64,000 nt of DNA from an uncultured Pseudomonadota bacterium (GTDB lineage: Bacteria > Pseudomonadota > Gammaproteobacteria > Ga0077536). Of this stretch, positions 10,094-27,473 are shown piece by piece (the first letter of the stretch is position 1; each line of letters starts with the position of its first letter). The position numbers and the translations under genes were made by a program. The DNA is taken from contig CAIKBL010000089.1 of NCBI GenBank assembly GCA_903825645.1, positions 1 through 64,000 on the forward strand. The letters run 5' to 3'. The notes beneath the pieces are model-generated. The model was not told the origin of the DNA, ran no database searches, and saw nothing but the letters and a program-made list of their open reading frames with translations.

Positions 10094-10218
10094 CGCCTAT
10101 ACGTTCCAAAGGCTTCCTAGCAAAGCCAGCCCACCAGTTGTAGCAAACGTTGTAGTAGTTTTGTTTCACGGGTCGATTTACTACATAATTTTCGTAGTTG
10201 TCCAAAGGATTACTACGC

Positions 10219-11424
10219 ATGGCGTCGAAACTTACTGATCTGCAAATAAAAAATGCCGCGCCCAAAACAACCAAATACACCCTGTCGGCTGGCCATGGGC
10301 TCACGCTAATCGTGATGCCGGATGGCGCCAAGTACTGGCGCCTGCGCTACCGGTTTGCCGGCAAGGACCACATGATTTCGGTAGGCCGCCCCTACCCATT
10401 TACTACACTCAAGCAAGCCTTGGCCGAGGCAGCCGAACTCCGAGCCTTGGTCGCAGCGGGTACAAACCCGGCCGACCAGCGCCGGGTCGAGAAGCTCGCC
10501 GAGCAGCAGCGGGTAGCCAACACCTTTGGCGAGGCAGCAGAAGCCTGGCACGCCTTCAGGAGCAAGGCCTGGAACGCCAAGACCAGCCAGCAGGCCCGCA
10601 TCTACCTCGACAAGGACCTACTCCCCAAACTCCGTAGCCGCCCGCTGGACAGCATCACCCCGCCAGAGCTCGGGGCTCTGGTTGCTGACATTGAGGCCCG
10701 GGGAGCTTTCGACGTCGCCAAGAAGATCCGCCAGTGGCTGAAGGCCATCTATGCCTATGCCCGGGCGAACGGCTGGACCTCCGCAGATCCCGCCAAGGAC
10801 CTCGCTGCCCTTGCCAACAAGGGCCCCGAGGCCAAGCGCTTCGCCCACCTTGAGCTGGACGAGTTGCCCGGCTTCATCCGCGCTCTGGAGGCTTATGACG
10901 GGTCTCCGTTGGTCAAAGCTTGCGCCAAGCTCGCCCTGTGGACCGCAAACCGTCCTGGTATCACCCGCACCCTGCGCTGGTCGGAACTCGACCTGGACGC
11001 GGGGATCTGGACGGTAAAGAAGGGCCGTGAGGGCATGAAGCGCGGATACTTCCACGTCACGCCGCTGCCGACCCAGGCCATCGCAATGCTCAAGGAGCTG
11101 AAACCCATCACGGGAAACTTCGAGCATGTGTTCATTGGCCGGAATGACCCGCGCGTGCCGCTGAGCGACGGGGCGGTCGCAGGGATGTTCAAGCGTATCG
11201 ACTACCACAAGCGCCAGACCATGCATGGCTTCCGGCATCTGATCAGCACTGCGTTGAACGAGAAGGGCTACGAGGCGGACTGGGTGGAGCGCCAGTTGGC
11301 ACACGGCGACCCGAACAAGATTCGGGGGATCTACAACGAGGCTGCCTATGTGGAGCCTCGGCGAAAAATGACGCAGGACTGGGCGGATTACCTCGAAAAT
11401 CTCATACAGGGGAGTGGGCGCTAA
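10219..11424 (+). CDS. P4-type tyrosine recombinase (integrase)
   Basis: This 401-residue integrase has the N-terminal DUF4102 arm-binding domain (start MASKLTDLQIKNA), a SAM-like core-binding domain (about 95-180) and a C-terminal catalytic domain. The active-site residues are visible: Arg near 244 (ANRPG), the HGFR box near 336, LAHGDP near 360 and the nucleophile Tyr near 372 in GIYNEA. The start at 10219 is preferred over upstream 10198 because AAAGGA precedes it by about 10 bases. It follows tRNA-Gln and marks the left edge of an accessory region. No excisionase (AlpA) gene is seen after it. The protein looks intact. Confidence 0.92.
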   Translation: MASKLTDLQIKNAAPKTTKYTLSAGHGLTLIVMPDGAKYWRLRYRFAGKDHMISVGRPYPFTTLKQALAEAAELRALVAAGTNPADQRRVEKLAEQQRVANTFGEAAEAWHAFRSKAWNAKTSQQARIYLDKDLLPKLRSRPLDSITPPELGALVADIEARGAFDVAKKIRQWLKAIYAYARANGWTSADPAKDLAALANKGPEAKRFAHLELDELPGFIRALEAYDGSPLVKACAKLALWTANRPGITRTLRWSELDLDAGIWTVKKGREGMKRGYFHVTPLPTQAIAMLKELKPITGNFEHVFIGRNDPRVPLSDGAVAGMFKRIDYHKRQTMHGFRHLISTALNEKGYEADWVERQLAHGDPNKIRGIYNEAAYVEPRRKMTQDWADYLENLIQGSGR

Positions 11425-11628
11425 AGCGTCGTTCTATACGAACGCGCATGGAAGCCGCCACCGCATCAGGGTATGAGTGCGCGTCCCAGTATCTTGAAGA
11501 CATCATGGACACCGTGACTACCGAACAGATCGTCAAAGTGATAGAACTCGTCCGCTCATTTGCTAACTTGAGCAATAGGTTGCATTGAAGACGGCTTATT
11601 CGTCACACCCTTAGAGAAAAAGACGCCG

Positions 11629-11925
11629 ATGGCCAAAGAGAAAGTCGATCAAAGTTTATTTGCCCAATTAGCACATGACGTTCCATTGGACGATGTTCCT
11701 GATTACGACCGCGGGCCGAGACTCGTAAAACTCATATGCATTGAGACCCTTAAAATCGGTCTGTTGCTGGGCTTGGTATTTTGCATCTCGCTGTGGTGCG
11801 TCCTATTACACATACCAAGTCGTGGAGGGTGGTTGACTTGGTATTTTTGGGCGACCGTCACGCTATCTGCGCTAGTGCCAATTATCCTAGTCTTGCTTCT
11901 CCTCCATGATCTAAATGCAGTTTAA
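11629..11925 (+). CDS. Small membrane protein, unknown function
   Basis: This 98-residue protein is not recognised. A charged cytoplasmic N-terminus (about 1-35) with a VDQSLFAQLAHDVPLDDVPDYD stretch of mixed charge is followed by two membrane segments, about 38-60 and 70-92, separated by a short loop containing PSRGGW. It lies in the accessory region between the integrase and an IS remnant and is not in an obvious operon. It could be a small cargo gene of the integrated element. No function can be proposed. Confidence 0.5.
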   Translation: MAKEKVDQSLFAQLAHDVPLDDVPDYDRGPRLVKLICIETLKIGLLLGLVFCISLWCVLLHIPSRGGWLTWYFWATVTLSALVPIILVLLLLHDLNAV

Positions 11926-12203
11926 AACTGTCTAAATGACTCATTGCCAACTTTTGAACCAAAGATGTCTCTAACCGGGGGCCTCTCGGTGCTGTCCTTA
12001 AGTTGGCTAATAATGGCCCGCTATTGGTTCATTTTTGAGCTCGGTTTATGGGGAACTTTCTGGTTTTTTTATAGATTATGAATCTTAAACGTATAGCCAA
12101 AAAGCCCTTGCGGGACGCCATCGACGTTATCCCCGATTTTCGTAGCCATTTAAGACTCGAGTATGGCGCTTCCTGCATCCTCGCACGGCAAGGAGAGGAC
12201 GAG

Positions 12204-12317
12204 ATGACGAAGTCGAAGTTCACCGAGGAGCCGATCCTGTTTACCCTGAAGCAGGGAAAGGATGGTCAGGCGAGTTCGGACGTCTGCCGGCAGATAGAGA
12301 TGAGCCAGGCGACTGCG
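12204..12317 (+). pseudogene. IS3-family transposase OrfA remnant
   Basis: The frame starting ATG at 12204 encodes the typical OrfA start: KSKFTEEPILFTLKQG, then a DVCRQIEMSQAT block. This matches the helix-turn-helix N-terminus of IS3-family OrfA (family pattern: FTEEQI, A.RQ, VCR..G.SEATFY). Similarity stops at about 12317, before the W-K core that should follow, and no OrfB is present. It is a truncated, non-functional fragment left by an old insertion or a rearrangement in the accessory region. Confidence 0.75.
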
Positions 12318-12607
12318 CGGCGCACACAGGTATCATCCGTCGGCGATCGTGCAGCGTCGACGCTGGACAAGGCCCCGCTGGAGCGGACGCTCACTGCCTG
12401 ATTGGCTCCAAAGTGCCGACTCAGGTCATAGGTTCTAGCAAAGGCGCATCTCTCCAGTTCGGGAATGAATGCGCGCAACCACTCGCGAGCGATGGTCAGT
12501 ACGTCAGCAATAGTCGTCAGTTTTAGGCATGACGCAATCCAGAACTATGAAAGGGCCTACCCTGCCACTGCCTAGGATGACCTCCGCAACAAAGGGTTCT
12601 AGGCGGA

Positions 12608-13912
12608 TTAGCGCTTTGCAAATGCCAATCGATGAGTTCGTTGAATCTGCTCACGCCAGACATCAGAAAGTCCAGCCGCTCCCGCAAACTCCGGCCACCG
12701 TCGCACCGCTGCCAAAACCTCCTCCAGAATCTTCCCCGCACGACCGCGCTTCATCAGCGCAACCTTAGCGCAGGCTTCGAAATCCGCAACTGTGAAGCCA
12801 TCCCGCTTGCCGTTCATACTCATCTGATGCACGGCGGTCCAGGCGCCAGACGGGTTGTAGCTGTAGGTCACATCGAACGCTGGCGCTAGGAGCCACACTC
12901 CCTGCTTGTCCATCAGAAACGCAATATTCTTCACGTGGTCGTCCTGGTTGCGCGCGACCATGTTGAACACCATTCGTCGGAACTGCTCTTCGACGGCCGC
13001 CATTGGCAGGTTCATCTGGCGAATCGTCAGCAGCGCCTGCTCATAGGTGTAGGCGCCGGCCTGATTGAAATCAAAGTGAGCCAGCGCGCAGAGCGACTGC
13101 ATGTGCAGTTTCTCCCCGCCGGGCATCCGGTCGAAGCGACGGGTCATGAAGTGTCGTCGTCCGCTCTCCTCCAAAAGCCGGCAGTCGCTCATCGTGATGC
13201 CAGCCGCCCTGGCCATCAGGTGGTAGGCGTACTCGATGGCGCCGTAGCCTTTCGGGTCTTCGAGTTCCTTGTCCTTGTTGCCAGAGACCCCGTCGAACTT
13301 GAGCAGCCAGTATTCGAAGCCCTCGCCCGCTGCCACCTGCCCGGAGCGCACTTCGAGGGTCTGAGGATTCCAGGCGATGACCGCCTTGGCGCGAGCGCCG
13401 CCGGCCGAGGTGCCGACGAGCAAGATGTCGTTCAGCGCCTTCTGCCGGGCCGCGCCCTTGAAGCTCGCCTGCAGTTGATGGCGATGCGTCAGGACGTCGG
13501 AGGCCAGCTGCACCAGCGCATCGATTTTCACTTCCGAGGCCGGGCGGGATGTCGGCCCCAGCGCAGGCGCAAACTCCAACGCGCCCATGCCGCGAGTACC
13601 CGTGTAGCACAGGCGCTCCACGGCATTGAAGGATTCCGGTGTGCGCCCCTGCGTTGCCAGCCAGGCATCGATGAGCGCGTTGCCAAACTTGTCGGGCAGT
13701 GAATCTGCCAGCAGCCCCGGCAGGCCGTGAAACGTGACGGCGGGCAGCGCCGGGAAGGTGTACACACGGTCGCTCAGCGGCATGGTGATGGGCGACAGCT
13801 GGATACCGCTGCGCGCAAAGGCCGGGTCGTACTGGAAGGCTGCGGCGCGGTCGCCAGTCTCCATCGTCACGGCACCAATGGTGCGGCCCCAAAGCAGCAC
13901 CTCGGCGATCAC
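12608..13912 (-). CDS. hipA: HipA-like serine/threonine kinase toxin
   Basis: HipA toxins phosphorylate aminoacyl-tRNA synthetases or related targets and cause growth arrest or persistence. This 434-residue protein has both the HipA N1 domain (about 1-110) and the kinase core. A G-loop-like TSAGGARAK lies at about 168-176, the catalytic RNQDDHVKN at 321-329 (Asp324/Asp325) and the DFG-like FDVTYS near 346. All catalytic elements are intact, so it is probably active. The start is ATG at 13912, overlapping the end of hipB by four bases. The cellular target cannot be read from sequence. Confidence 0.93.
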   Translation of the reverse strand: MIAEVLLWGRTIGAVTMETGDRAAAFQYDPAFARSGIQLSPITMPLSDRVYTFPALPAVTFHGLPGLLADSLPDKFGNALIDAWLATQGRTPESFNAVERLCYTGTRGMGALEFAPALGPTSRPASEVKIDALVQLASDVLTHRHQLQASFKGAARQKALNDILLVGTSAGGARAKAVIAWNPQTLEVRSGQVAAGEGFEYWLLKFDGVSGNKDKELEDPKGYGAIEYAYHLMARAAGITMSDCRLLEESGRRHFMTRRFDRMPGGEKLHMQSLCALAHFDFNQAGAYTYEQALLTIRQMNLPMAAVEEQFRRMVFNMVARNQDDHVKNIAFLMDKQGVWLLAPAFDVTYSYNPSGAWTAVHQMSMNGKRDGFTVADFEACAKVALMKRGRAGKILEEVLAAVRRWPEFAGAAGLSDVWREQIQRTHRLAFAKR

Positions 13913-14262
13913 GTGGCGTCACCCCATGTCCATTTATTCTTGCTGACTTTGGCCGGAGAGGCCTTGGAAGCGCGTTTGCGCTGGTTACGCTCAAGCTTCA
14001 ATTGGGCGATGGGACTCGCGGCGGCCTCCGGCACCAATGTCTCGAGGCCTTCGATGAGATCCAGCGCCCGACACACTCGGAGGAACCCGGACAGCTGCGT
14101 TGCCACCGCGCCGGACTCCAGCCGTTCGACCGTACGCTTCGCCACCCCCGCTCGCTCGGCAAGCGCGGCCTGGGTGAGGTTCATGGCAAGGCGCGCCGTC
14201 GTAAGGCGATGGCCCAGCTCCTGGAGCAGGGCTTCATCGGGGAGCTGAGCGGTAATCTTCAT
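13909..14262 (-). CDS. hipB: HipB-like antitoxin (XRE repressor)
   Basis: This DNA-binding antitoxin of 117 residues begins at ATG 14262 (MKITAQLP). A Cro/C1-type helix-turn-helix lies at about 25-75, including LTQAALAERAGVAKRTVERLE. The basic Lys-rich C-terminal tail probably contacts HipA or DNA. A longer frame to 14292 exists, but it would run through the operator dyad at 14266-14281, so the shorter start is preferred. Stop and hipA start overlap, giving translational coupling with the antitoxin made first. Two TCGCC-N6-GGCGA sites upstream suggest autorepression. Confidence 0.9.
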   Translation of the reverse strand: MKITAQLPDEALLQELGHRLTTARLAMNLTQAALAERAGVAKRTVERLESGAVATQLSGFLRVCRALDLIEGLETLVPEAAASPIAQLKLERNQRKRASKASPAKVSKNKWTWGDAT

Positions 14263-14265
14263 GAT

Positions 14266-14281
14266 TCGCCTAATATGGCGA
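14266..14281. promoter_or_regulatory. hip operator 1, TCGCC-N6-GGCGA
   Basis: This inverted repeat with arms TCGCC (14266-14270) and GGCGA (14277-14281) lies immediately upstream of the hipB start. The same arms and spacing recur 41 bases away. Repeated dyads of this kind are the known layout of HipB operators, though the E. coli sequence differs. Confidence 0.65.
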
Positions 14282-14306
14282 TATGATGCCAATATATCAA
14301 TTCAAT

Positions 14307-14322
14307 TCGCCGTTTATGGCGA
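14307..14322. promoter_or_regulatory. hip operator 2, TCGCC-N6-GGCGA
   Basis: This is the second copy of the dyad, arms at 14307-14311 and 14318-14322, with the same 6-base spacer length and a centre-to-centre distance of 41 bases (about four helical turns) from operator 1. The AT-rich stretch between the two could hold the promoter. Confidence 0.65.
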
Positions 14323-14968
14323 CTTATTTATCCGCAGGACTCCTGCCTCGTCGATTGGTCGGGCGACGGCGGTCGTATGCTTACTCAGTGCAGCCCCCAT
14401 TCCGCGCTTGCCCTGCAGCTACGCGCTACCGCGGATTCGGGACGAGCCAAGACTTTCGCTCAGCGGCAATTAGATTAATGACCTGGCGATTCGTGTTCAG
14501 GAAAGCCTAATTCTAACAATATAATTTTTCATAATTATTAGGCACATTTTTTCTACCTGTGCACCCAGGTCTCCCTCTGGTCCTGTTTACTTGAAAACCG
14601 GAATAAAATTCCAGACCGAGAGCAATCAAATACTGCCACCTGTGGGGCCAAATGCACTGGCACCCATTCATTGCTGTGCTGGCGTGCTGCCGATCTCAAG
14701 TCGCTGGGATTCGTACCTACTACAGATTTGATCCGATGCACGATTTACCCGAAACGTCAGATGCAACCATTTCAGAATTCTTGTTGGGCATCGCGATATC
14801 GACCAATACTGTCTGCGACAGCAGTTAGCAAGGGCGCCGCCCTGCAGAATCCGCCCGAGCCTCAGACAATCCGCGCACGGGTCATATTCAGCACCATTGA
14901 AGGTCTGACACTGGTCAAACCAGATCTCTATAGTCATGCGGCCAGACGCGATAGCAGAAAAATTCGCC
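14323..14968. other. Gene-free stretch
   Basis: About 650 bases lie between the hip operators and the end of the MFS gene. A very AT-rich segment is present at about 14510-14555. The short open frames on both strands resemble nothing I recognise. It may contain decayed mobile DNA, but I see no terminal repeats. Confidence 0.5.
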
Positions 14969-16189
14969 TTACGGTTGCTTCGTTAGCGGGCCGAGATAGC
15001 GAGAAGGCGGAGCGATTCCCAGCAGCGCCGCAAAGGCCGTGAAACCCAGAAAGGCTGTCAACCAAATTGCCGACGCGCCAAATCGATCGAGCGCAAAGCC
15101 GAACACGAACGGCGCGAGCGCTTGCGTCACCCTAGCTGGCATTATGAGCCAACCCTGGCGTGCACCGTAGCCTTCGGGACCAAACATTAGCAACGGGAGA
15201 GTCCCCTTGGCGATGGTTAAGATGCCATTACCCGCACCGTGTAATATGGCGAATGCGGCCGCTCCGGGCGCACCCAGCATGACCAGTAGAACTGCGCCAA
15301 CAGGGTGTGCGAATGCGGCACAGCGCGCCGAGAGCAGCGGAGAAACGTGTCGCAGAAATCCGAATTCCAAGAGCCGGCCACCGACCTGCGCAGGCCCAAC
15401 CAGCGCACCAGCCCCAACCGCCACCGCAAGTGTCGCGCCGGTTGCTTCGAGTAATCTCGGCAGGTGGGACGCCATAGCGGTGCTGATGAACCAAGTCACC
15501 GCAAACACGTAGGCAAGCAGCACTGCGGCCAATCGGCCACTGCTCGGTGCAGGCGCTGAGCTGGACATCGATGACGCTGTCGGCGTTTTCGGAATGACAG
15601 CCTGTTCAACCTCCGCTCGCGGAATGAGAGCGTTCAGGGGCAGCGCGACAGTCATATGCAAGGCCGCCCATACGAAGCATGCTTGGCGCCAACCGAAATG
15701 GGTATCCAGAAGGGTCGTAAGCGGCCATGCTATCGTGCTGGCAAAGCCCGCGATCAGCGTCACGCCTGTGATTGAGTTCCGGGAGTCCTCACGATAAAGA
15801 CGTACCAAGCTCGCAAATGCCGCTTCGTACAGCCCACTGCCCATTGCAACGCCGATCAAGGCCCATGCGGCGAATAACTGCCATAGACTATCCGTGAGGC
15901 CTAGGCCGACAAGCCCGAGAGCGAACACCCCGTTAGTCACCATCAGTACCGTTCGTCCACCGCGTAGATCGATAGCCCGCCCCGATGCCGGGCCCACCAG
16001 CGCTGAGATCACCAAAGCGGTAGAGAAAGCGCCAAACACGGTTGGCGTCGAAACGTGAAGATCCCGCGCGATGGGTGTCGCAAGCATTGCCGGAAGGTAG
16101 TAAGACGAACCCCACGCCAAAGTCTGACCGGTACCGACGGCAATCACCGTCCTTGTCCGACTACCTCGCAATGACATGGCCTCACGCAC
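14969..16189 (-). CDS. MFS transporter linked to the ars operon
   Basis: This 406-residue major facilitator protein has twelve predicted membrane segments. The motif-A-like loop between helices 2 and 3 is visible as GRAIDLRGGR, and the central cytoplasmic loop (about 195-225) is Ser/Pro-rich. The start is GTG at 16189, supported by GAAGGG eight bases upstream. It is the last gene on the minus strand behind the ars operon and the rhodanese relic. It may export an arsenic or sulfur compound, but the substrate is not evident from sequence and it may simply be a neighbour. Confidence 0.85.
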   Translation of the reverse strand: MREAMSLRGSRTRTVIAVGTGQTLAWGSSYYLPAMLATPIARDLHVSTPTVFGAFSTALVISALVGPASGRAIDLRGGRTVLMVTNGVFALGLVGLGLTDSLWQLFAAWALIGVAMGSGLYEAAFASLVRLYREDSRNSITGVTLIAGFASTIAWPLTTLLDTHFGWRQACFVWAALHMTVALPLNALIPRAEVEQAVIPKTPTASSMSSSAPAPSSGRLAAVLLAYVFAVTWFISTAMASHLPRLLEATGATLAVAVGAGALVGPAQVGGRLLEFGFLRHVSPLLSARCAAFAHPVGAVLLVMLGAPGAAAFAILHGAGNGILTIAKGTLPLLMFGPEGYGARQGWLIMPARVTQALAPFVFGFALDRFGASAIWLTAFLGFTAFAALLGIAPPSRYLGPLTKQP

Positions 16190-16411
16190 TCGCTGAACCC
16201 TTCAGCCTGAGGTTCGAACCAATGGTTGCTCGAAAGGCAACCCGACACCTGTCCCTGGCGCAAAAAGGCTGCCCCGACCATTTCTCACTCCACCTCGCCC
16301 ACTCGATTGCGTCGTTACACACTTGTTCGGAGGTTCCTCTTGAAGCGCGGTCCCCATGGAAAGTCCTGTCAGCGAAGTCGGGGGAGCGAACTACACCCAA
16401 CCGCGCTCCGC

Positions 16412-17337
16412 CTATCCTGAGCGCCGGTAGCCAACCTCAGCCTTCGAGGTTTGCCGGAGACTAGGCGCCACCGGCGGGAAATCCCTGCGGCTCCATGCAC
16501 CCCATGACCCTTCGTAGTTACGCACTTTTTCATAGCTCGCGAGTTTCAGCGCCAGCACCGTGTGTGCAGCGCGGATACTGCCTTGGCAGTAGGTAACGAT
16601 CCCCTTGTTGGGCTGAGAGCCGAACGCATCAAACATACGACGCATAGTCTCTATTGACTTGAATCATTTGGAGTCCGGCTGAATGACGTCCGTCCATATC
16701 AGATGAACGGATCCCGGGATATGCCCCTGTGGATTTGTGCCCGAGTCCTCAACCTTTGTCCACTCATCGTTCCCGCGCACGTCGAGCATTATCCGATCCG
16801 AAGCGCTGATCGTCACCTGCACCTAGGCGGAATCAGGAATCGAGGCATCGTCCCGATGTGCTTCAAATCTCACTGCAAGCGGATCCATATTTACCATATT
16901 CATCGGTCGATGCTCCGCCAACCAAAGATCCCACCCGCCATCGAGAACCCTCACCCGCGGGTGACCAGAGTATTTGGGGCCCCACCACAACCGACCCGCG
17001 AATAGATTATTACCGTCGTCATAGGCAACGACAGTAGTCTCATTGCTAATGCTGAGCCGAGACATCGGCACCGCGAAACGTTAGGCCCCAACGACATCCC
17101 CGCCATTTCACAAAAAGGAGGGCCGTCACTGTCCACTGCGCCGGCAATATGCAATTACTTATAGAGATCGCCTTTCCTCGTGCCGAGAAGGCGAACCGCG
17201 TAATCATCCAGGTGACGCGACCCTGCCCATTCCATCACTTGTGCGACGAGCTCTCCTTGCCCGCTCGTGTGTTCGACCACGGCTACCGGAGCGACCCTGG
17301 GCTTGTAGAGCACCGACCCTGACACAACGGCCAGCAC
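16412..17337 (-). pseudogene. Decayed two-domain rhodanese (sulfurtransferase)
   Basis: Pieces of one SseA-type thiosulfate sulfurtransferase lie in order on the minus strand but in different frames. The N-terminal part (17337-17155) ends in a stop just before HIAGAV. Next comes the segment with VVAYDDGNN, GRLWWGPKYSGH and VLDGGWDLWLAE (about 17060-16900). Then MLDVRGNDEW with GHIPGSVH, ended by TGA near 16664. Last is the catalytic loop TYCQGSIRAAH with NYEGSWGAW (16630-16470). At least one frameshift and two in-frame stops separate them. The gene cannot give a full product. Its position behind arsC suggests it once belonged to the ars operon. Confidence 0.85.
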
Positions 17338-17480
17338 AAGCCAGACAACGACACTGCGAAGGGGTAGTCGTCACATGCAATTACGCTCAGTTCGCGAATT
17401 TTTATTCGGCGCACCCCCTAACTGGAACGCCGTGCGCACCGCTGTCCTGCGCCGCACCTTCGGCCCGACGCGCGCGATCG

Positions 17481-18344
17481 CTAAGGACCCGTGCCAGGAA
17501 CGAGAGACTCGGTGACCTCGTCGAGGGGTTTCAAGGCAAGCTCATCGGTGGTCAGGCGGGCATAGATTTCGACTAGATTGCCGTCCGGGTCGCGCAGCCA
17601 CAGCTCGTGCAACGGGGTGCCCTTCCAGGTTGTACGAGGCGGCTTCTCAATGGTTGCTGCAAAGCTCGCCGCCAGATGGTAGGCGTCGATTACCTCAGCC
17701 TTGTTCGCCACCTCGACTCCAAGGTGATAGAGCGTGTCCTGATGTAGCTCTTTGCCATCGGCGACCAGCAGCACAATATTCAATTTCAGGTCTGGTCGGA
17801 TGAACGTCGCATACCTGTGCGTCCATTCCTTCGGCCAGATATTGAGGAGCCACGCATAAAACCGCGCGCTGGCAGCCAAATCGCCGACCCGGATACTAGT
17901 GTGAAATGCTTGAGAAGCGGGTCTTTCCGGGAGATCGAGCAGCGCTCCCAAAATTTCTATCCGTGCTCGGATCTGATCGCGCGCTATGCGATATTTCTCA
18001 AGCACGTTTGCATGGGACATGTCCTTATCGTCTGTCGCCGGGTCAACAATCGGCCAGTGCAAGCGCTTGACCTCTCCCGACAGGACGGGACACACCTCTT
18101 CCGCACACAGCGTGATCACCATGTCGACCTGGGACGTGTCGATGGTATCGACTGACTTGGAGCTATGGCCCGCGAGGTTGATTCCGAGCTCCGCCATCGA
18201 TTCAATCGCGTAGCGACTGACAACAGATGGTCGTGTCCCGGCACTCACGACTTCGATACGGTCGCCGAGGAGCTGCCGCGCCAGCCCCTCAGCCATCTGG
18301 CTACGAGCCGAATTGGCGACACAAAGGAAGAGAATTCGCTTCAT
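17481..18344 (-). CDS. arsC: ArsC arsenate reductase fused to a VOC/glyoxalase domain
   Basis: The first 140 residues are a low-molecular-weight-phosphatase-type arsenate reductase, which reduces As(V) to As(III) using a cysteine relay. The P-loop C8-x5-R14 (CVANSARS), Cys80 and Cys85 (LCAEEVCPV) and the acid Asp101 (DPA) are all present. After a short linker, residues 146-265 form a VOC-fold domain with a metal-ligand pattern of His148 (FHTS), His207 (YHLG) and Glu259 (VEIYAR). That half contains no cysteine, so it lacks the thiol pair of ArsI. The activity of the VOC half is unknown. The gene lies 12 bases after acr3 and is the last intact gene of the leftward ars operon. Confidence 0.9.
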
Positions 18345-18356
18345 TGCAAGAAGCCG

Positions 18357-19433
18357 CTAAACAGCATCGGTGGCAGGTGTTAGCCGGGCGTCGAACCAAT
18401 GGTGCTTGAACCAAAACGCTAGCTTGACCAAGGAAATCAGAACCGGCACTTCAATCAGAGGGCCAATGACGGTCGCGAAGGCGATAGGCGAGGCTAGACC
18501 AAAAGTCGCGATGGCGACGGCGATCGAGAGCTCGAAGTTATTGCTTGCCGCCGTAAATCCAACAGCAGTCGCGCGCGGGTAATCAGCGCCAATCAATTTG
18601 CTTAGCCAGAAGCTAAAGACGAACATGACGATAAAATAAACAGTGAGAGGTATCGAAATTCGCACTACGTCGCCCGGCAGCTGCAGTACCATGGCGCCCT
18701 TGAGGCTGAACATCGCGGCAATCGTAAACAACAGCGCGGCGAGCGTGATGGGTCCGATGCGTGGCAAGAAGACACTCTCGTACCAGATTTTTCCCTTGCG
18801 GCTGATTAGTACGATGCGAGTGAGAAAGCCTGTGACGAACGGCGTACCAAGGTAGATCAGCACCGATTTCGCCACAGTCCAGAAATCAACATTGACCACT
18901 CGCCCTTCGAGCCCGATCAGGGGTGGCAGGATGGTTAGAAAGAACCACGCGTAGAGGCTGAAGAACGCGATTTGGAATATTGAATTAAACGCCGCGAGCG
19001 CAGCGACATATTGATTGTCGCCTTCTGCAAGTTGATTCCAAACCAAGACCATGGCAATGCAGGGCGCCAGCCCAATCAGAATCACCCCGGTCATGTACTC
19101 GGGATAGTCACGCAGAAAGAGGACCGCGAGACCGAACATCAGCAACGGCGCGACCAGCCAGTTCTGTAACAATGACAACGCCAGAAGCTTCTTATGTTTA
19201 AAAACTTCCGGCAGTTCTTCGTATCTCACCTTGGCAAGAGGCGGATACATCATCAAGATCAATCCGATAGCTATCGGGATATTGGTCGTGCCCACGGACA
19301 AGCTATCGATGAATTTCGGCACGCTATCGAAGGCATAGCCAAGACCGACACCCACCGCCATGGCGACGAAAATCCAGAGGGTGAGATTGCGGTCTAAAAA
19401 GGACATTTTTTTAGTTGGCATTGATTCGGTCAT
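18357..19433 (-). CDS. acr3: Arsenite efflux permease ACR3 (leftward operon)
   Basis: ACR3 carriers of the BART superfamily export arsenite from the cytoplasm. This 358-residue protein has ten predicted membrane segments. The functionally required cysteine lies in GLAPCIAMV (Cys125), and the conserved acidic residue lies in SNNFELSIA near 303. ATG 19433 overlaps the arsA stop by four bases, so it is translationally coupled to the ATPase. With arsA and arsD in the same operon, the pump may work as an ATP-driven complex; ArsA is best known with ArsB, and ArsA-ACR3 pairing is inferred from genome context. Confidence 0.94.
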
Positions 19434-21271
19434 AGTCGACTTCCTGATATCGATTCGGCGTGATTCTGGCTCGTTAGTCCAACAGCTAAATTCAGCCCGC
19501 GCGTAATCCCAACCGCTTGCGATAAAGCACGCAAGCCGTCGGCGCCGATCGGCTCTTGCGCCATCATCGGCACCACGGCAAAACGTTGGGCGAGACCGTG
19601 CTGGACTTTTTCGAGCTGCGTGGTCTCCGTATGGGCGCGACGGACCAGCAGCGGGTGTATGGTCTGCGCTGCGCTAAGACTTGCGTTCACAATCCACGCC
19701 CACGGCTCGATGTGGGCGCGGCGTAGATCGTCTTGCAGATGGGCAGCCTCCAGCACCGGAGTTGTCTCGGGCAAGGTGACGATGAGGATCTTGGTCTGCG
19801 CCGGGTCTTGAAGACGCATCATCGGCGTCACGACCCGCACAGCGGTGGTGCCTTGCGCATGCCGCACGATGTCGCGATGGTAGGCACTCGTTGCATCGAG
19901 CAGCAGTAGAGTATGACCGGTTGGCGCCGTATCCATGACCACGAAATGACGGCCGCTCTCGCGAATTACGCGTGAAAAAGCCTGGAATACCGCTATCTCC
20001 TCCGTGCAGGGGGAACGCAGATCTTCCTCCAGCATGGCACGCCCCTCACGGTCCAGATCACGGCCTTTGGTTTCCAGCACGTCAATGCGATACCGTGCGG
20101 TCTCCACCGTCGGATCAATGCGGCTGACCGTCAAATGGGGCACCACTTCGCCTAGCGTTTCGGTGAGATGGGCAGCCGGATCGGTGGTCGTCAGCAGTAC
20201 CTTGTGCCCACGATCCGCGAGGGCGGTCGCGATCGCAGCGGCGATCGTCGTTTTGCCAACGCCGCCTTTACCCATCAGCATGACGAGGCCCTTGCCGGAC
20301 CACTCAAGCTCATCGATCAACGCCGCCAGGGTGGGTAAGTTCATGGCGGAACGGTCCGCAGCTGCATCGGCGAGGGCATCGGCGCCTAACGACCCGTCGT
20401 ACAAAAAGCGACGCAAGGCGTCGATACCGACAAGGTTTTCGGGCTGCAGAGGGATATTCGTCCTTGGCAGTATCGCGATAATCGGCGGCATCGTTGCGAG
20501 CGCGTCTTCCTCGCGCCGCGCGAGGGCACTCGCGAGTCGGTCGCCATCGCTGTCCTTCGGCATGAGGCCATTGATCGCGATGTGCTGGTTTTTGATTCCG
20601 ATATCGGCAAGCTCGCGTGAGGTCCGCCCCGCCTCGGATAGCGCTGAGTGGCTCGGGCGAGCAACCAGGATGAGGCGGGTAGCCGTAGCGTCGGCAAGAC
20701 ATTCCACGGCGGCAGCATAGCGCTCGCGCTGTTTCTCGAGTCCAGCCAGCGGGCCGAGGCACGAAGCGTCCCCTCGACCTTCTTTTAGAAATTCACTCCA
20801 TGCACCCGGGAGCTGCAGCAGGCGGATGGTATGTCCGGAAGGGGCCGTGTCGAACACGACGTGCCTATAGCGTGCTGTCAGGTCGTGATCGGTCAACAGG
20901 CCCGTGAACTCATCAAAGGCCGCTATTTCAGTGGCACATGCGCCGGACAGTTGCTCTTCGATGTTCTTCAGGACTTTGTCGGGCAGCTTTCCGCGGATCG
21001 GGCCGACGATGCGCTCACGGTACTCCGCGGCTGCTTCCTCTGGGTTGATCTCAATCGCATCGAGCCCTGCGGCACCCTTGATAGGCGTGATGTGATTACC
21101 AATCTCAGTGCCAAAAACTTGTCCGACATTGGATGCGGGGTCGGTACTCACCAGAAGAATGCGCTTGCCCTCATCGGCCATACTGAGCGCCGTCGCGCAG
21201 GCTAAGGAGGTCTTGCCAACGCCGCCTTTGCCTGTAAAAAATATGAATTTTGGAAGATCGTTGAATATCAC
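19430..21271 (-). CDS. arsA: Arsenite pump ATPase ArsA
   Basis: ArsA energises arsenite export. The 613-residue protein has two homologous halves, each with a P-loop GKGGVGKT (14-21 and near 330), and the DTAPSGHT and DTAPTGHT switch motifs. The three metalloid-binding cysteines are in place: [21 protein letters not shown] and [10 protein letters not shown]. The start is GTG 21271 with AGGAG six bases upstream. An open frame continues to 21559 but overlaps arsD and has no similarity, so it is rejected. The gene starts 40 bases after the arsD stop and overlaps acr3 at its end. Confidence 0.95.
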
Positions 21272-21311
21272 ACTTGCAACTCCTGCCGCCCATTCGTTTG
21301 CCGGCGGCCGA

Positions 21312-21917
21312 TCAGCAGCAACTCTCGGCGTTGGCAACCGTAGCCTTGGCGGGGGCACAGCAGGATGAAGTCGCGGTTTTCGGCTCGTCACCTCCAAGCA
21401 TGCGCTCGGCCAGTCCAACGATATTCTTGGCCGACGCCTGCTTGACTGCTTCACCAATCTTGACGGCTTCGCGCATGGCCTCCACAGATAATCCGAGTTT
21501 GCGTGCCTTGTCATAGTGAAATTTGAAGCACGGCTCGCAGCTCGCGCCAATCGCGGCACCGAGCGCGACCAGTTCTCTGATGGCCTCGCTCATTTCAACT
21601 GATCCCGACGTCGCTCCCAGTCCGACCATTGCAGCAAGCTCATCGCGTCTTGGATAGCGTCCGCTGGTAGCGACCTTGTCACCTATGACGATAACCGGCA
21701 ATTCGTCGCCGCCTGAACGGTCAAGTATCTCCTTAACGCCAGCGTGGTCACAAAAGCTTTCCGGTTCTTGCGCGAGGTTGAAGCGTCGTACGGTGATACC
21801 TTGGGTCTTGAGCCACTCGAGGTCGCCCGCGAATTGAGCAAGCGCGGGGTCAATTTCAGGACCGCAGACGCCGGTCGAGCAACACATGGCGGGGTCGTAA
21901 ACCTGAACGGCTGTCAT
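21312..21917 (-). CDS. arsD: ArsD metallochaperone fused to an AhpD-like domain
   Basis: ArsD hands arsenite to ArsA. Residues 1-105 are a standard ArsD with the metalloid site Cys12-Cys13-Cys18 (MCCSTGVCGP). ArsD proteins normally end soon after; here residues 108-175 form a carboxymuconolactone decarboxylase/AhpD-like helical domain. It carries the redox motif Cys127-x2-Cys130 with His134 (SCEPCFKFH). The tail then carries two further vicinal pairs, Cys186-Cys187 and Cys200-Cys201. The start ATG 21917 has AAGGA upstream. The extra domain could reduce the chaperone's thiols or move As(III); that is inference. Confidence 0.9.
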   Translation of the reverse strand: MTAVQVYDPAMCCSTGVCGPEIDPALAQFAGDLEWLKTQGITVRRFNLAQEPESFCDHAGVKEILDRSGGDELPVIVIGDKVATSGRYPRRDELAAMVGLGATSGSVEMSEAIRELVALGAAIGASCEPCFKFHYDKARKLGLSVEAMREAVKIGEAVKQASAKNIVGLAERMLGGDEPKTATSSCCAPAKATVANAESCC

Positions 21918-21952
21918 ATCGATAATTCCTTTCGACGATTGGGTGCATCGTT

Positions 21953-22321
21953 TCAGCGAGCTCTGTTCGATGCGCCGCGTATGAGGGGAAGCGGTGCGTC
22001 CGCCGCACCATGGCCGAAGACCGCATTCAGCAAACTCGTCAATGGCAACAGGCTCGCGGGATTGAGCGAATAGCAAACGCGAGGACGCTCAATTTCACCC
22101 GTGATAATGCCTGCCGCTTTGAGGATGCGGAGATGCTCCGAAACGGTAGATTGCGCCAACTGGATCTCCTGCACGATGTCGCATCCGATGCAGGACTGCT
22201 TCTCAATGAGGAGACGTACGATGCCAATCCGGGCAGGATGACCGAGAGCCTTGGCTAACGCAGCTAGGTCATCATCGGTCTGGCCGATGCTTGGTACCCG
22301 AATCTTTGGCTGCTTTTTCAT
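21953..22321 (-). CDS. arsR: ArsR repressor of the leftward ars operon
   Basis: This 122-residue winged-helix repressor of the ArsR/SmtB family should release DNA on binding As(III). Candidate ligands are Cys44 and Cys47 (SCIGCDIV) with Cys83 (RVCYSLN). The first pair lies at the start of the DNA-binding region, as in the plasmid R773 class but with different spacing. The recognition helix contains LAQSTVSEHL. The gene leads the operon, with arsD 35 bases downstream. A dyad ATCGT-N6-ACGAT lies 22 bases upstream of the start and is a likely operator. Confidence 0.93.
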   Translation of the reverse strand: MKKQPKIRVPSIGQTDDDLAALAKALGHPARIGIVRLLIEKQSCIGCDIVQEIQLAQSTVSEHLRILKAAGIITGEIERPRVCYSLNPASLLPLTSLLNAVFGHGAADAPLPLIRGASNRAR

Positions 22322-22342
22322 GATCTCAATTTGCGTTTATTA

Positions 22343-22358
22343 ATCGTTTTTCGACGAT
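22343..22358. promoter_or_regulatory. Candidate ArsR operator, ATCGT-N6-ACGAT
   Basis: The inverted repeat has arms at 22343-22347 and 22354-22358 and is flanked by a longer AT-rich symmetric region bounded by ATTAAT on each side (22339-22373). It lies just upstream of the leftward arsR start, where an autoregulating ArsR would bind. Confidence 0.5.
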
Positions 22359-22530
22359 GTACGATACATTAATCTGAATGTACTCGCAGTGCAAACCCTT
22401 TTCTCGACCGGGAGTGCGTGCCCCGTATTACTTGGAGCGGACGGCGCGAACCGCGATGCAGCCATCTCCTGTCACTTTGACTTGGTGCCCGCTGCTTACC
22501 CCACGCTCTGGATCCAAAGTTACTCCGCCA

Positions 22531-22644
22531 TTATCCACCCGCGTCCTTTTGTGCGGCGGCGGCTGAGTGTTTGCGTTTCAACACGATGATGAGGGGGATC
22601 CCGGCACAACAGAACAACATCCCTACACTAATGAACCAGCCCAC
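22531..22644 (-). CDS. Possible 37-aa membrane peptide or transporter tail
   Basis: On the minus strand an open stretch from GTG 22644 encodes one strongly hydrophobic segment (VGWFISVGMLFCCAGIPLII) followed by a basic cytoplasmic end KRKH and a soft tail. This looks like the last membrane helix of a transporter or a single-pass small protein. No ribosome binding site is visible before the GTG, and an in-frame stop lies about 60 bases further upstream. It could be the leftover end of a lost transporter gene. It sits between the two divergent arsR genes. Confidence 0.25.
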   Translation of the reverse strand: MGWFISVGMLFCCAGIPLIIVLKRKHSAAAAQKDAGG

Positions 22645-22721
22645 GGTTAACTTACTCGAGCCTGCACAATAGAACGATGTCCCAGGCGCCTCCTACGTCA
22701 AGCGCCGACACAAGTGCCGCG

Positions 22722-22751
22722 TTGCTTTTTATTCAATACTTCAACTATTAT
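22722..22751 (+). promoter_or_regulatory. Candidate promoter of the rightward ars operon
   Basis: A -35-like TTGCTT (22722-22727) is followed by an 18-base spacer and a near-consensus -10 TATTAT (22746-22751). Transcription would start about 6-7 bases later, at or next to the ATG at 22758. The mRNA may therefore be leaderless. Confidence 0.5.
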
Positions 22752-22757
22752 CGATAT

Positions 22758-23084
22758 ATGGAAGAATACGAAGCCATCCGAGCACTGACTGCTATTGCCC
22801 ACCCGGCGCGGCTGCAAGTATTCCGTGCGTTGATAGTCGCTGGTCACGGGGGGCTGACGCCGAGCGCGCTTTCGAGCGCCCTCGGCGTGCCGCCAACATC
22901 GCTTTCTTTTCACTTAAAAGAGCTGGCAAACGCCTTCCTCGTCACCCAGGAGCGCGATGGTCGTCATCTGATCTACCGGGCGACCTACACGCGCATGAAT
23001 GCGTTGCTTGCGTACCTAACGGCCAACTGCTGCGCCGGCACCGAGTGCGTCGTCAATCCCGCCGTGGCCTGTGCCAATGGCTGA
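22758..23084 (+). CDS. arsR: Second ArsR, C-terminal cysteine-triad type
   Basis: This ArsR/SmtB repressor of 108 residues starts at ATG 22758. The putative As(III) site is at the C-terminus, Cys91-Cys92-x4-Cys97 (NCCAGTEC). It resembles the triad of Acidithiobacillus ferrooxidans ArsR rather than the helix-3 type of the other arsR here. The recognition region reads GVPPTSLSFHLKEL. A longer frame to 22677 exists but would cover the promoter-like elements. No Shine-Dalgarno is seen before 22758, consistent with leaderless translation. It heads the rightward operon arsR-arsI-arsC-acr3. Confidence 0.9.
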   Translation: MEEYEAIRALTAIAHPARLQVFRALIVAGHGGLTPSALSSALGVPPTSLSFHLKELANAFLVTQERDGRHLIYRATYTRMNALLAYLTANCCAGTECVVNPAVACANG

Positions 23085-23098
23085 ATGAGGAGTCAGTG

Positions 23099-23563
23099 AT
23101 GAAGCGTTTCCACATCCACTTATGTGTCGAGAATCTCGAAAAAAGTATCGCCTTCTATTCCAATCTTTTCGCCGCTGGTCCCACGCGTCAAGAAGCTGAT
23201 TATGCGAAATGGATGCTCGAAGATCCCCGTGTTAATTTCGCCATCTCGACACATGGCACCGCAGCGGGTATCGAACACCTGGGTTTTCAAACCGACGATG
23301 AAACTGAGCTTGCCGAGATGAAAGCACGGGCCAAGGTAGCTAACCTGTCATTGCATGATGAAGGGGACACGACCTGCTGCTATGCGCGCAGCGATAAATA
23401 TTGGATAACAGATCCGCAAGGGATCCCCTGGGAGCACTTCCGTACGCTGGGAAACGTGCCGATGTTCAGCGACATGCGGACCTCAGCCATTTGCCACACC
23501 GGCGAATCACCGGCCGCCCAGACTCTGGACACATCACTCAGCGCCAAATCCACCTGTTGCTAG
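23099..23563 (+). CDS. arsI: ArsI-type C-As lyase (VOC superfamily)
   Basis: ArsI is an Fe(II) dioxygenase that cleaves the carbon-arsenic bond of trivalent organoarsenicals such as methylarsenite. The 154-residue protein has the family start KRFHIHLCVENLEKSI and metal-ligand candidates His5/His7, His60 and Glu112. It also has the substrate-binding vicinal pair Cys93-Cys94 (DTTCCYARSDKYW), all typical of ArsI. A related family, CadI, is annotated similarly, but the ars context favours ArsI. The start is ATG 23099 with GAGGAG upstream. It ends in a Cys-Cys pair. Confidence 0.9.
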   Translation: MKRFHIHLCVENLEKSIAFYSNLFAAGPTRQEADYAKWMLEDPRVNFAISTHGTAAGIEHLGFQTDDETELAEMKARAKVANLSLHDEGDTTCCYARSDKYWITDPQGIPWEHFRTLGNVPMFSDMRTSAICHTGESPAAQTLDTSLSAKSTCC

Positions 23564-23572
23564 GTCGCACGC

Positions 23573-24082
23573 ATGGCAGGCAAAATTTATAACGTGCTCG
23601 TCCTGTGCACGGGTAATTCTGCGCGCTCGGTCATGACTGAAGTCCTCATCAACACGATGGGCCGTGGTCGATTTAGCGCCTATAGCGCTGGCAGCAAGCC
23701 GACCGGGTCGGTGCACCCCTTCGCGCTGGAACAGGTGCAACAGTTGGGCTATCCGATTGCTACGCTGCGCAGCAAAAGCTGGAATGAATTTACTCAGGCC
23801 GAGGCGCCCCTGATGGATTTTGTCATCACAGTCTGCAACAACGCGGCGGGCGAAGTCTGCCCTGTCTGGCCTGGACATCCGCTGACTACACATTGGGACA
23901 TCGATGATCCCGCCGCCATCCAAGGCGACGACGCGCAAAAACGCCGAGGCTTCGCCCGCGTTTTTTATTTTCTGAAGCGCCGTGTCCAACAACTCGTGGA
24001 TCTGCCCCTGAAAACGCCGGATCCGTTGGCGATGAAGCGTGAATTCGACAGCATCACCTCAGACAACATTGGAGAATTTTAG
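23573..24082 (+). CDS. arsC: Arsenate reductase ArsC (rightward operon)
   Basis: This is a second, stand-alone low-molecular-weight-phosphatase-type arsenate reductase of 169 residues. The catalytic P-loop is Cys12-x5-Arg18 (CTGNSARS), and Cys88 and Cys96 (VCNNAAGEVC) supply the relay thiols. The loop between them is longer than in the fused ArsC at 17481-18344, so the two enzymes are from different subgroups rather than recent duplicates. It starts 9 bases after arsI and its stop directly abuts the acr3 start. Confidence 0.93.
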   Translation: MAGKIYNVLVLCTGNSARSVMTEVLINTMGRGRFSAYSAGSKPTGSVHPFALEQVQQLGYPIATLRSKSWNEFTQAEAPLMDFVITVCNNAAGEVCPVWPGHPLTTHWDIDDPAAIQGDDAQKRRGFARVFYFLKRRVQQLVDLPLKTPDPLAMKREFDSITSDNIGEF

Positions 24083-25159
24083 ATGAGCGCGCCTGAGACC
24101 GCATTGGAAGCTGAGCCGAGGATGCCAGCAATGAATTTTTTTGAACGCTACCTGACGGTGTGGGTCGCACTCTGCATTATCACCGGCATTATTCTCGGAC
24201 AGCTTCTCCCGACACCGTTCCAGGCCATAGGACGATGGGAGATCGCTCAGGTCAATCTCCCGGTAGGGGTCCTGATTTGGGTGATGATCATCCCGATGCT
24301 GGTCAAGATTGACTTCGGTGCACTTGGCCAAGTGCGCCAGTATTGGCGTGGGATCGGCGTCACCCTCTTCGTAAACTGGGCGGTGAAACCATTTTCAATG
24401 GCGCTGCTGGGGTGGCTCTTTATCCGTCACCTATTCGCCTCGTCCTTGCCAGGCGACCAGCTGGACAGCTATATCGCTGGATTAATCCTGCTTGCGGCGG
24501 CGCCTTGCACGGCGATGGTATTCGTGTGGAGTCGTCTCACTGGCGGGGATCCCTATTTTACGTTGTCACAAGTCGCGCTCAACGACGCCGTGATGATTTT
24601 CGCTTTCGCCCCTATTGTCGGACTGCTGCTCGGCATTTCGTCAATCACCGTGCCGTGGGCGACGCTCCTCATGTCGGTCGGCCTCTACATCGTTATTCCC
24701 GTCATCCTCGCCCAGTGGTGGCGGCACGCCTTGCTGAGCCAAGGCAGGGAGGCTTTCGAGGCAACCATGATCAGAATAGGTCCCTGGTCGACCAGCGCGC
24801 TGCTGGCGACACTGGTCTTGCTCTTTGCCTTCCAAGGCGAGGCAATCTTTGAACAACCGCTCATCATCGCCATGTTGGCGGTGCCTATCTTGATACAAGT
24901 GTTCTTCAATGCCGGTCTCGCCTACTGGCTGAACCGCCTTGTGGGAGAAGAACACAAAATTGCCTGCCCATCGGCCCTCATTGGCGCCAGTAATTTTTTC
25001 GAGCTTGCCGTGGCCGCCGCCATCAGCCTCTTTGGTTTCAATTCTGGCGCCGCACTTGCCACTGTCGTCGGTGTCCTCATTGAGGTGCCCGCTATGTTAC
25101 TGGTGGTCCGTGCGGTAAATGGTTCTCGTGCGTGGTATGACGAGACGCCTGCGGCATAA
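24083..25159 (+). CDS. acr3: Arsenite efflux permease ACR3 (rightward operon)
   Basis: This is a second ACR3 carrier of 358 residues, ten membrane segments, with the essential cysteine in AAAPCTAMV (Cys142) and the acidic residue in ASNFFELAVA. It differs from the other ACR3 along its whole length, including the N-terminus and the loops, so it represents a separate subfamily. There is no gap between the arsC stop and its ATG; an alternative start at Met17 (NFFERY) would leave a small gap. No ATPase accompanies it, so it should act as a secondary carrier driven by the proton gradient. Confidence 0.94.
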   Translation: MSAPETALEAEPRMPAMNFFERYLTVWVALCIITGIILGQLLPTPFQAIGRWEIAQVNLPVGVLIWVMIIPMLVKIDFGALGQVRQYWRGIGVTLFVNWAVKPFSMALLGWLFIRHLFASSLPGDQLDSYIAGLILLAAAPCTAMVFVWSRLTGGDPYFTLSQVALNDAVMIFAFAPIVGLLLGISSITVPWATLLMSVGLYIVIPVILAQWWRHALLSQGREAFEATMIRIGPWSTSALLATLVLLFAFQGEAIFEQPLIIAMLAVPILIQVFFNAGLAYWLNRLVGEEHKIACPSALIGASNFFELAVAAAISLFGFNSGAALATVVGVLIEVPAMLLVVRAVNGSRAWYDETPAA

Positions 25160-25708
25160 CAGGAACACCTTGGCTGGCGTCGAACAAAACGACCGGGCAA
25201 GGATTGGGTTAGCGTGCAGCGATCTTTGGATCGCTTGTTCGTCTGGGTTGTCCGAAACGCCACAGAGATGAAGGGGGCCGATCGGGCTGCCGCACGGGAG
25301 TACCCCATTTTCGGGAAGTGATTGCCAGATAAACTTCCATAAAAACCGAAGCGCTCAGTCGCAAGCGATGCGGGAATTTTTTGACGAATTTCGAAAAGCG
25401 TCGGTCGACTTGTGGTTCCAGGCAAGTTTTACCTGCACGGGTCGTTGAAGACGACAGCACGACGGGGAAACTGACCCGTCAGTCAAATTCTCTCACGTAT
25501 TCCCAACCCTTGAGTTTGGCGACGCGCCTGATCGATGCCCGAATTAACGCCGCCCATGACAGGATTGAACACCACCGCCATCGCCCACAAATTACGCCGA
25601 CAAAGCGGCCTTCGACGCTTTGGAGAAAAGACTGCGCCGCTGACCCATGTCGATACGCACGGCGAGGACAACAGTCCCCGCACAACTCGTCGCCTTAAAA
25701 TTTGAGCG
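25160..25708. other. Gene-free stretch with a hairpin
   Basis: No recognisable gene lies between the rightward acr3 and the end of the BVMO gene. A 7-bp stem AGCGATC/GATCGCT with a TTTG loop (25218-25235) could end the ars transcript, but it is followed by only a weak T-rich stretch. Short frames on both strands match nothing I know. This gap probably marks the right edge of the arsenic block. Confidence 0.5.
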
Positions 25709-27328: not shown

Positions 27329-27473
27329 GACTATCTCTTTAAAATTTATGAAACGGGGAATTTTTGGCGCACACACTCGTTATCAAAAGGCATAGGGCGC
27401 GGCGCTACCCAACACCCTATCGGTCCGATCGACGGATGCTGGGTCTCGATGTATGCAGATTGGGACGTACTTC

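Follow-up and report, generated by a model that had tools for sequence, protein, structure and literature searches.

What does a VOC domain do when it is joined to an arsenate reductase? The question is raised by a gene in the 64,000-nucleotide stretch of DNA analysed here (the window), which encodes ArsC and a VOC domain as a single protein. Stop codons are present on the plus strand of positions 17481-18344, and the open frame is that of the minus strand. The gene, its domains and the genes around it are the following:

17481..18344, minus strand: arsC-VOC fusion gene, 287 aa, ATG start
17940..18344, minus strand: ArsC domain (LMW-PTP fold, thioredoxin-type), residues 1-135 (Pfam LMWPc; Foldseek)
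17550..17918, minus strand: VOC domain, residues 143-265 (Pfam Glyoxalase, 43.6 bits, cut-off 20.6)
18357..19433, minus strand: acr3, arsenite efflux pump of the fusion's operon (TIGR00832, 421 bits, cut-off 282.8)
19430..21559, minus strand: arsA ATPase (TIGR04291, 853 bits, residues 102-668)
21312..22076, minus strand: arsD fused to an AhpD/CMD domain (NF033727, 119.5 bits, and PF02627)
21953..22321, minus strand: arsR repressor (NF033788), taken as the first gene of the operon
23045..23563, plus strand: arsI with a Cys pair, divergent second operon (NF041414, 132 bits, cut-off 116)
22677-23084, 23573-24082 and 24083-25159: arsR, arsC2 and acr3 of the second operon
16475..17304, minus strand: remnant of a sulfurtransferase (rhodanese/MST-like) gene, interrupted by in-frame stops and a change of frame, immediately downstream of the fusion gene
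14969..16189, minus strand: MFS permease related to ArsK (NF033733, 255.5 bits, under the ArsK cut-off of 400)

The fusion gene and its ars operon

The start codon of the fusion lies 12 bp past the acr3 stop, and the fusion is the last gene of an arsR/arsD/arsA/acr3 operon in which acr3 and arsA overlap by 4 bp. Because the open frame of arsA begins about 100 codons ahead of its matched part, the true start is probably further in; that of arsD is probably about 53 codons into its open frame. The second operon, with the order arsR-arsI-arsC-acr3, is divergent from the first. The decayed sulfurtransferase is 50% identical over 214 residues (tblastn) to an intact copy in L092 (L numbers denote loci of the genome scan described below), and the MFS permease is the next recognised intact gene downstream of the fusion. 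A search of positions 14000-26000 of the window against Rfam gave no match at the gathering score.

Other genes of the window were noted in passing. At 10198-14292, a tyrosine integrase-like gene behind one resembling rpsI was recognised by eye, as was a HipA-like gene paired with a helix-turn-helix partner; the integrase-like and HipA-like genes suggest that the ars cluster lies within a genomic island. Two genes for Baeyer-Villiger-type flavin monooxygenases, distant kin of ArsO (25709-27376 and 61799-63400, both on the minus strand), code for proteins with 25% and 29% identity to the ArsO of L029, and similar genes are found near the VOC family in L007, L023, L094 and L095. A gene pair resembling egtB and egtD of ergothioneine synthesis was seen by eye at 34087-36329 (plus strand). 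Long ArsD matches of the same kind as the ArsD-AhpD/carboxymuconolactone decarboxylase fusion of the window are present in L027, L031 and L037; a lone AhpD protein is encoded near the fusion in L014 (Pfam), and a probable one in L092 and L093 (BLAST to the window protein and inspection by eye).

The ArsC half matched Pfam LMWPc with 64.4 bits (cut-off 23.2), and the top Foldseek matches were the ArsC proteins of B. subtilis and pI258. It has the LMW-PTP fold, the P-loop Cys8-Val-Ala-Asn-Ser-Ala-Arg-Ser, the two relay cysteines Cys80 and Cys85, and Asp101 of the DP motif; the catalytic roles of these residues we take from what is known of the ArsC family. Scores for the curated ArsC profiles were under their cut-offs (TIGR02691, 108 against 174; NF010053, 98 against 215; TIGR02689, 82 bits against 158). 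The protein shares fold, P-loop cysteine and relay cysteines with the thioredoxin-type ArsC (pI258, B. subtilis; TIGR02691) but has a Cys-X4-Cys spacing where the pI258/B. subtilis type has Cys-X6-Cys, and it carries an added C-terminal VOC domain. The preliminary description of this locus had listed every ArsC catalytic residue as present and had placed separate arsI and arsC genes in the other operon; residues and profile matches agree with both statements.

Fusions of ArsC are known. ArsR-ArsC, ACR3-ArsC, AqpS-ArsC and ArsN-ArsC proteins have been reported (PMC6205960, PMC6514093), in which, as here, ArsC is joined to another arsenic-resistance function; no VOC or glyoxalase partner is named in the available parts of these papers. 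Burkholderiales ars clusters contain a glyoxalase/bleomycin-resistance gene, 'glo', in the order arsR-glo-arsC-acr3, which is a separate gene, in contrast to the fused VOC half of the window (PMC3954881). We found no description of an ArsC-VOC fusion in the portions searched of the open-licence full-text literature.

Family and residues of the VOC half

In a VOC tree of 84 rows, built from 148 columns, with long branches and an unsettled bootstrap, the VOC halves of the fusions, the lone VOC proteins and the fusions with a pseudo-ArsC formed one clade of 51 rows (support 90/92), with ArsI (13 rows) as its sister clade (99/94) and the pair set apart (99/93) from the rows of glyoxalase I, Fos-like and other VOC proteins. 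The separation from the last groups refers to rows that are themselves sub-threshold members, at most 117 bits against 165 for the GloA rows (NF050074) and at most 60 bits against 180 for the Fos-like rows; curated Fos sequences were absent from the tree. ArsI was likewise the nearest family by profile and by PDB sequence search. The ArsI/CadI profile NF041414 matched 19/19 members of the VOC family (best 3.1e-18), with scores of 44.4 bits for the whole window protein, 47 bits for its VOC half and 44.6-51.2 bits for four pseudo-ArsC relatives, against a cut-off of 116. By comparison, the window protein reached 14-17 bits on NF050074 (cut-off 165), and the GloA rows formed a separate clade. An extradiol dioxygenase of the HpaD type was rejected, as that profile matched 13/19 members with a best value of 1.4e-6, weaker than ArsI/CadI. 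A misread ArsI is ruled out by score, Cys pair and clade.

The residues tell ArsI and the VOC family apart. The metal ligands of ArsI are His5/Gln8, His62/His65 and Glu115/Glu117, and its substrate cysteines are Cys98/Cys99, according to a review (PMC12607644). The corresponding positions of the window protein are:

17901..17903, minus strand: His148, predicted metal ligand (equivalent of ArsI His5/Gln8), 51/51 rows
17724..17726, minus strand: His207, predicted metal ligand (equivalent of ArsI His62/His65), 51/51 rows
17568..17570, minus strand: Glu259, predicted metal ligand (equivalent of ArsI Glu115/Glu117), 51/51 rows
17622..17627, minus strand: Trp240-Lys241, at the positions of the arsenic-binding Cys98-Cys99 of ArsI (alignment of 51 VOC rows)

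The three ligands were also conserved in 42/42 rows of an alignment of the fusions. This alignment excludes L036 and L038 (broken frames) and L039, L041 and L056 (fragments) and includes L037, a duplicate of L027; the tree and the 51 VOC rows have the same omissions and the same duplicate. Position 240 was Trp in all 51 VOC rows and position 241 was Lys in 37, Arg in 11 and His in 3, at sites where 13/13 ArsI rows have Cys-Cys; a profile alignment put Trp-Lys and the ArsI Cys pair in the same register. Residue 247 was Glu in 51/51 VOC rows as opposed to Lys in 13/13 ArsI rows (Lys105 in the T. curvata structures). Besides the triad, 19 further residues were invariant among the 51 rows, and no Cys was found past residue 85 of the window protein. 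ArsI (NF041414; PDB 5c4p, 5hcw) and the VOC family are thus each other's nearest relatives in the tree, with the ligand set in the same places and a common occurrence in ars operons, but the latter is a separate clade, mostly fused to ArsC, that scores 44-47 bits against 116 and has exchanged both the Cys pair and the Lys. The preliminary description had taken the VOC half for a cysteine-free domain with a His/His/Glu set that is probably not a C-As lyase of the ArsI kind. This view stands: the ligands are kept among homologues, the Cys pair is replaced in all 51 rows, and the domain clusters inside no known enzyme family with a set substrate but beside ArsI, apart from the sampled glyoxalase I and Fos-like rows.

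Structure models, of good confidence in both halves, were obtained for the full-length protein (pLDDT 88.7, pTM 0.71) and for the VOC half alone (pLDDT 92.3, pTM 0.85). In these models, both halves matched ArsC or VOC proteins of the PDB, and the predicted VOC fold was recovered by Foldseek and VIA-align. ArsI crystal structures were placed on the VOC model by Foldseek with an rmsd of at least 10 Å, against 2.7 to 5.7 Å for most other VOC proteins listed, and ArsI was not among the best 50 VIA-align entries for the VOC model. The large rmsd would reflect another way of pairing the two half-modules, possibly an effect of modelling the monomer alone, and is given no weight here.

Distribution, neighbours and ArsC partners of the VOC family

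A pattern-based scan of 84,980 species genomes, which recovers close relatives only, gave 78 query-related loci. Beyond the window, 38 non-duplicate loci encode both halves in a single frame, with L016, L023 and L025 cut by contig ends; the fusion was broken into two frames in L036 and L038, and fragments were found in L039, L041 and L056. In L046 and L047 the VOC half follows another N-terminal part. The fusion is therefore not an artefact of sequencing or assembly. The recurrence in 38 other loci rules out a frameshift error that joined two genes, and together with the grouping with ArsI in the tree it also rules out a glyoxalase I joined by accident.

Recorded hosts include alpha-, beta- and gammaproteobacteria, Myxococcota, Bdellovibrionota and one Chloroflexi bin, which may be misbinned, as its only support is a 3.4 kb contig. 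In the sampled genomes the VOC family is uncommon: at least 5/369 of the class, at least 2/398 of the phylum and at least 5/36 of the family, with the genome of the window counted in each; these are minimum counts, with no more than 9 or 10 candidates scored per genome. On plasmids, the fusion occurs in Methylocella tundrae (two records) and the lone VOC in Sulfuriferula sp. AH1. Six plasmid records covered 80% of the query, namely two fusions, three with separate arsC and arsI, and H4 from Mycolicibacterium (31%). The plasmid copies are annotated as 'VOC family protein'.

Neighbourhoods were compared for 45 loci (the 38 one-frame, two broken and three fragmentary loci, L046 and L047, with L037 left out), which may amount to 44 genes, as L056 probably belongs to the L016 gene (same bin, overlapping ends). 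Of the 45, 32 have an ars gene within 6 kb and 30 have an efflux pump within 1.2 kb. Seven of the 13 loci with no ars gene within 6 kb are shortened by contig ends; the other six (L011, L021, L026, L035, L046, L047) have more than 4 kb on both sides. These six indicate that a role in arsenic resistance is not universal in the family, as does L095, a region of 12.9 kb around the pseudo-ArsC-VOC gene L084 that showed no ars gene.

For the wider set of 57 VOC-family loci, which contains two duplicate pairs (L011/L082 and L027/L037) and in which distances were taken between stop-to-stop frames, an OsmC-like gene was found within 6 kb in 16. In 13 of those 16 (11 without two duplicates) it immediately follows the VOC gene on the same strand, no more than 124 bp away, and this set includes L035 and Methylocella, both with no ars gene within 6 kb. 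A sulfurtransferase gene was present in 6/57 loci, one being the decayed copy of the window, relatives of which are found near the VOC family in L005 (a contig-end fragment), L009, L019, L028 and L092. Neither gene was found in 31 lone-ArsC control loci; also absent from the 31 were ArsH (8/57 VOC loci), CDF (7), ArsO-like (5) and DnaJ (3) genes. The control overstates the specificity of the OsmC-like and sulfurtransferase genes, as it is taxonomically different (9/31 are Photobacterium) and the search seeds were drawn from VOC loci. GAPDH and ArsJ occurred in both sets (5 and 6 of 57 VOC loci; 7 and 7 of 31 lone-ArsC loci, all seven Photobacterium) and are thus uninformative on the VOC half. 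OsmC-like, sulfurtransferase and AhpD genes are thiol-linked, and as a lead only, the first two point to thiol or sulfane-sulfur chemistry.

The two halves have not fared alike. Among 34 intact fusions (L016, L023, L025, L035, L037, L043, L046 and L047 being left out), mean pairwise identity was 0.71 for the VOC half and 0.61 for the ArsC half, and it was higher for VOC in 530/561 pairs. Of the two, the VOC half rather than the reductase seems to be under the tightest evolutionary constraint. In L043, L099 and L100, the same VOC family is joined to the other type of ArsC, with Cys-X6-Cys. An ArsC tree (without L023, L025, L035, L046 and L047) rejected a single clade of all fused ArsC halves (AU p = 8.5e-5), so that either fusion took place twice or the ArsC half was exchanged. 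Seven lone-ArsC rows branched within the main fusion clade; this suggests either that the VOC half, too, can be lost or that fusion was more frequent.

Lone VOC genes were found in L081, L097 and L098. The L081 cluster, on the Sulfuriferula plasmid, reads helix-turn-helix regulator-arsC-arsD-arsA-VOC-CBS-arsB and adjoins a Tn3-family transposase gene; the plasmid was typed as conjugative. Conversely, seven proteins (L035, L046, L047 and L083-L086) have an intact VOC half and lack the ArsC catalytic cysteines. That of L035 is clearly an ArsC (135 bits) with Cys8, Cys80 and Cys85 replaced and Cys14 alone kept. Similarity to ArsC is barely recognisable in L083 (17.8 bits) and L085 (13.0 bits) and not significant for the N-terminal parts of L084, L086, L046 and L047, whose reading as decayed ArsC rests on place, linker and kin. 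The N-terminal parts of L083 to L086 hold two or three cysteines, with one bare C-X5-R match in L083, and no Cys-X4-Cys pair or recognisable P-loop was found in the four. The best tree has three losses of the ArsC cysteines (L035; L046 with L047; L083 to L086), but a single clade of all seven is allowed (AU p = 0.14), as is one of L035 with L083-L086 (p = 0.18). Judged from these trees, repeated independent loss is likely.

Two of these genes lie in complete ars clusters with a further arsC, L083 in the region L092 and L086 in the region L093, and both regions have copies of the MFS permease, 58-60% identical, near the pseudo-ArsC-VOC gene. In L094 (of L085), GAPDH and ArsJ adjoin that gene. 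In L046 and L047, from Bacteriovoracaceae, the N-terminal part has about 100 aa. At 12527-14665 of L092, an ECF-type sigma factor-like frame and a divergent ArsM-like (arsenite methyltransferase) frame were seen by eye; they adjoin the AhpD, sulfurtransferase and pseudo-ArsC-VOC genes, and L093 has a similar sigma-like frame.

The lone VOC genes and the seven proteins without ArsC cysteines show that the VOC function needs no arsenate reduction in the same chain. They weaken the earlier suggestion that the substrate of the VOC half, a putative arsenic ester or aldehyde, is formed alongside arsenate reduction.

Candidate functions of the VOC half

We lean towards a bifunctional enzyme of the ars operon, in which the ArsC reductase is joined to an independent, metal-dependent VOC enzyme for an arsenical or arsenic-thiol species. 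The ArsC half would reduce arsenate through the Cys8/Cys80/Cys85 thiol relay, and the resulting arsenite would exit through ACR3/ArsA. The VOC half would hold a divalent metal by His148, His207 and Glu259 and would transform an arsenical or its thiol adduct, gripped by basic and polar residues in place of cysteines. The predicted pocket is probably lined by the basic residue 241 and the invariant Arg177, Arg237, Thr239, Trp240, His246 and Glu247, and residues of this kind would accommodate an oxyanion or a thiol conjugate more readily than a bare trivalent arsenical; an arsenical captured by cysteines as in ArsI is an unlikely substrate. Fusion would co-localise the two activities and give them a common promoter, with the VOC activity independent of the reductase.

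An enzyme so near to ArsI, with metal ligands at the equivalent places, could still be a C-As lyase, acting on methylarsenite or an aromatic arsenical that is presented by the ArsC cysteines or by a small thiol. We regard this as unlikely, given that the Cys pair is gone and the ArsI Lys is Glu247 in all 51 rows, and that the VOC half persists where the ArsC cysteines do not. A true arsI, moreover, is found close to the fusion in the window, L003, L012, L014, L018 and L019, which argues for a non-redundant job of the VOC half. Somewhat less doubtful, if still improbable, is a thiol-conjugate enzyme of the glyoxalase I or Fos kind, working on adducts of glutathione or another thiol, perhaps those of arsenic or of carbonyls that arise during arsenic stress. 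Such an enzyme would fit the OsmC-like, sulfurtransferase and AhpD neighbours, the weak profile matches to Fos_GSH (4/19 members) and glyoxalase I (7-8/19), and the VIA-align matches to FosA, FosB and FosX structures (Z 11.9 to 12.7); VOC folds of many kinds reach a similar Z, however, and the tree places the family with ArsI.

The best structural matches by VIA-align also include binding proteins that confer resistance to mitomycin and phenazine. Scaffolding is a common role of fused accessory modules, and the VOC half might be a non-catalytic module for binding or dimerisation, comparable to the mitomycin and bleomycin binding proteins, that sequesters an arsenical or stabilises the protein. 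Many binding-only VOC proteins lack the metal triad, whereas here it is invariant in 51/51 rows together with the 19 other residues, and we consider a binding module very unlikely; the invariant ligands could alternatively hold a structural metal. A bolder proposal would make the VOC protein the core of a new, sulfur-linked arsenic detoxification: together with the OsmC-like protein and the sulfurtransferase it would make or cleave arsenic-sulfur compounds (thioarsenicals, arsenic-persulfide adducts), ArsC having been recruited twice and sometimes discarded. We give it little credence, and the weakness of the lone-ArsC control lowers it slightly further. Returning to the metal-dependent enzyme for an arsenical or its thiol adduct, the sequence comparisons suggest that the VOC family is probably an unnamed arsenic-resistance enzyme, catalytic and independent of the attached reductase.

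What is newly set out here is a predicted family of VOC metalloenzymes of ars operons, sister to ArsI and with an active-site signature of its own. The ars operons are among the best-studied resistance systems, yet a conserved VOC family in them, which spans several bacterial phyla and the plasmids of two species, is labelled only 'VOC family protein'. Its lone VOC genes, two kinds of fusion and fusions without reductase cysteines are natural experiments that make the question of its function testable. Should the VOC half prove to transform some arsenical besides methylarsenite, current schemes of the bacterial arsenic cycle, and gene-based surveys with them, may lack one of its steps.
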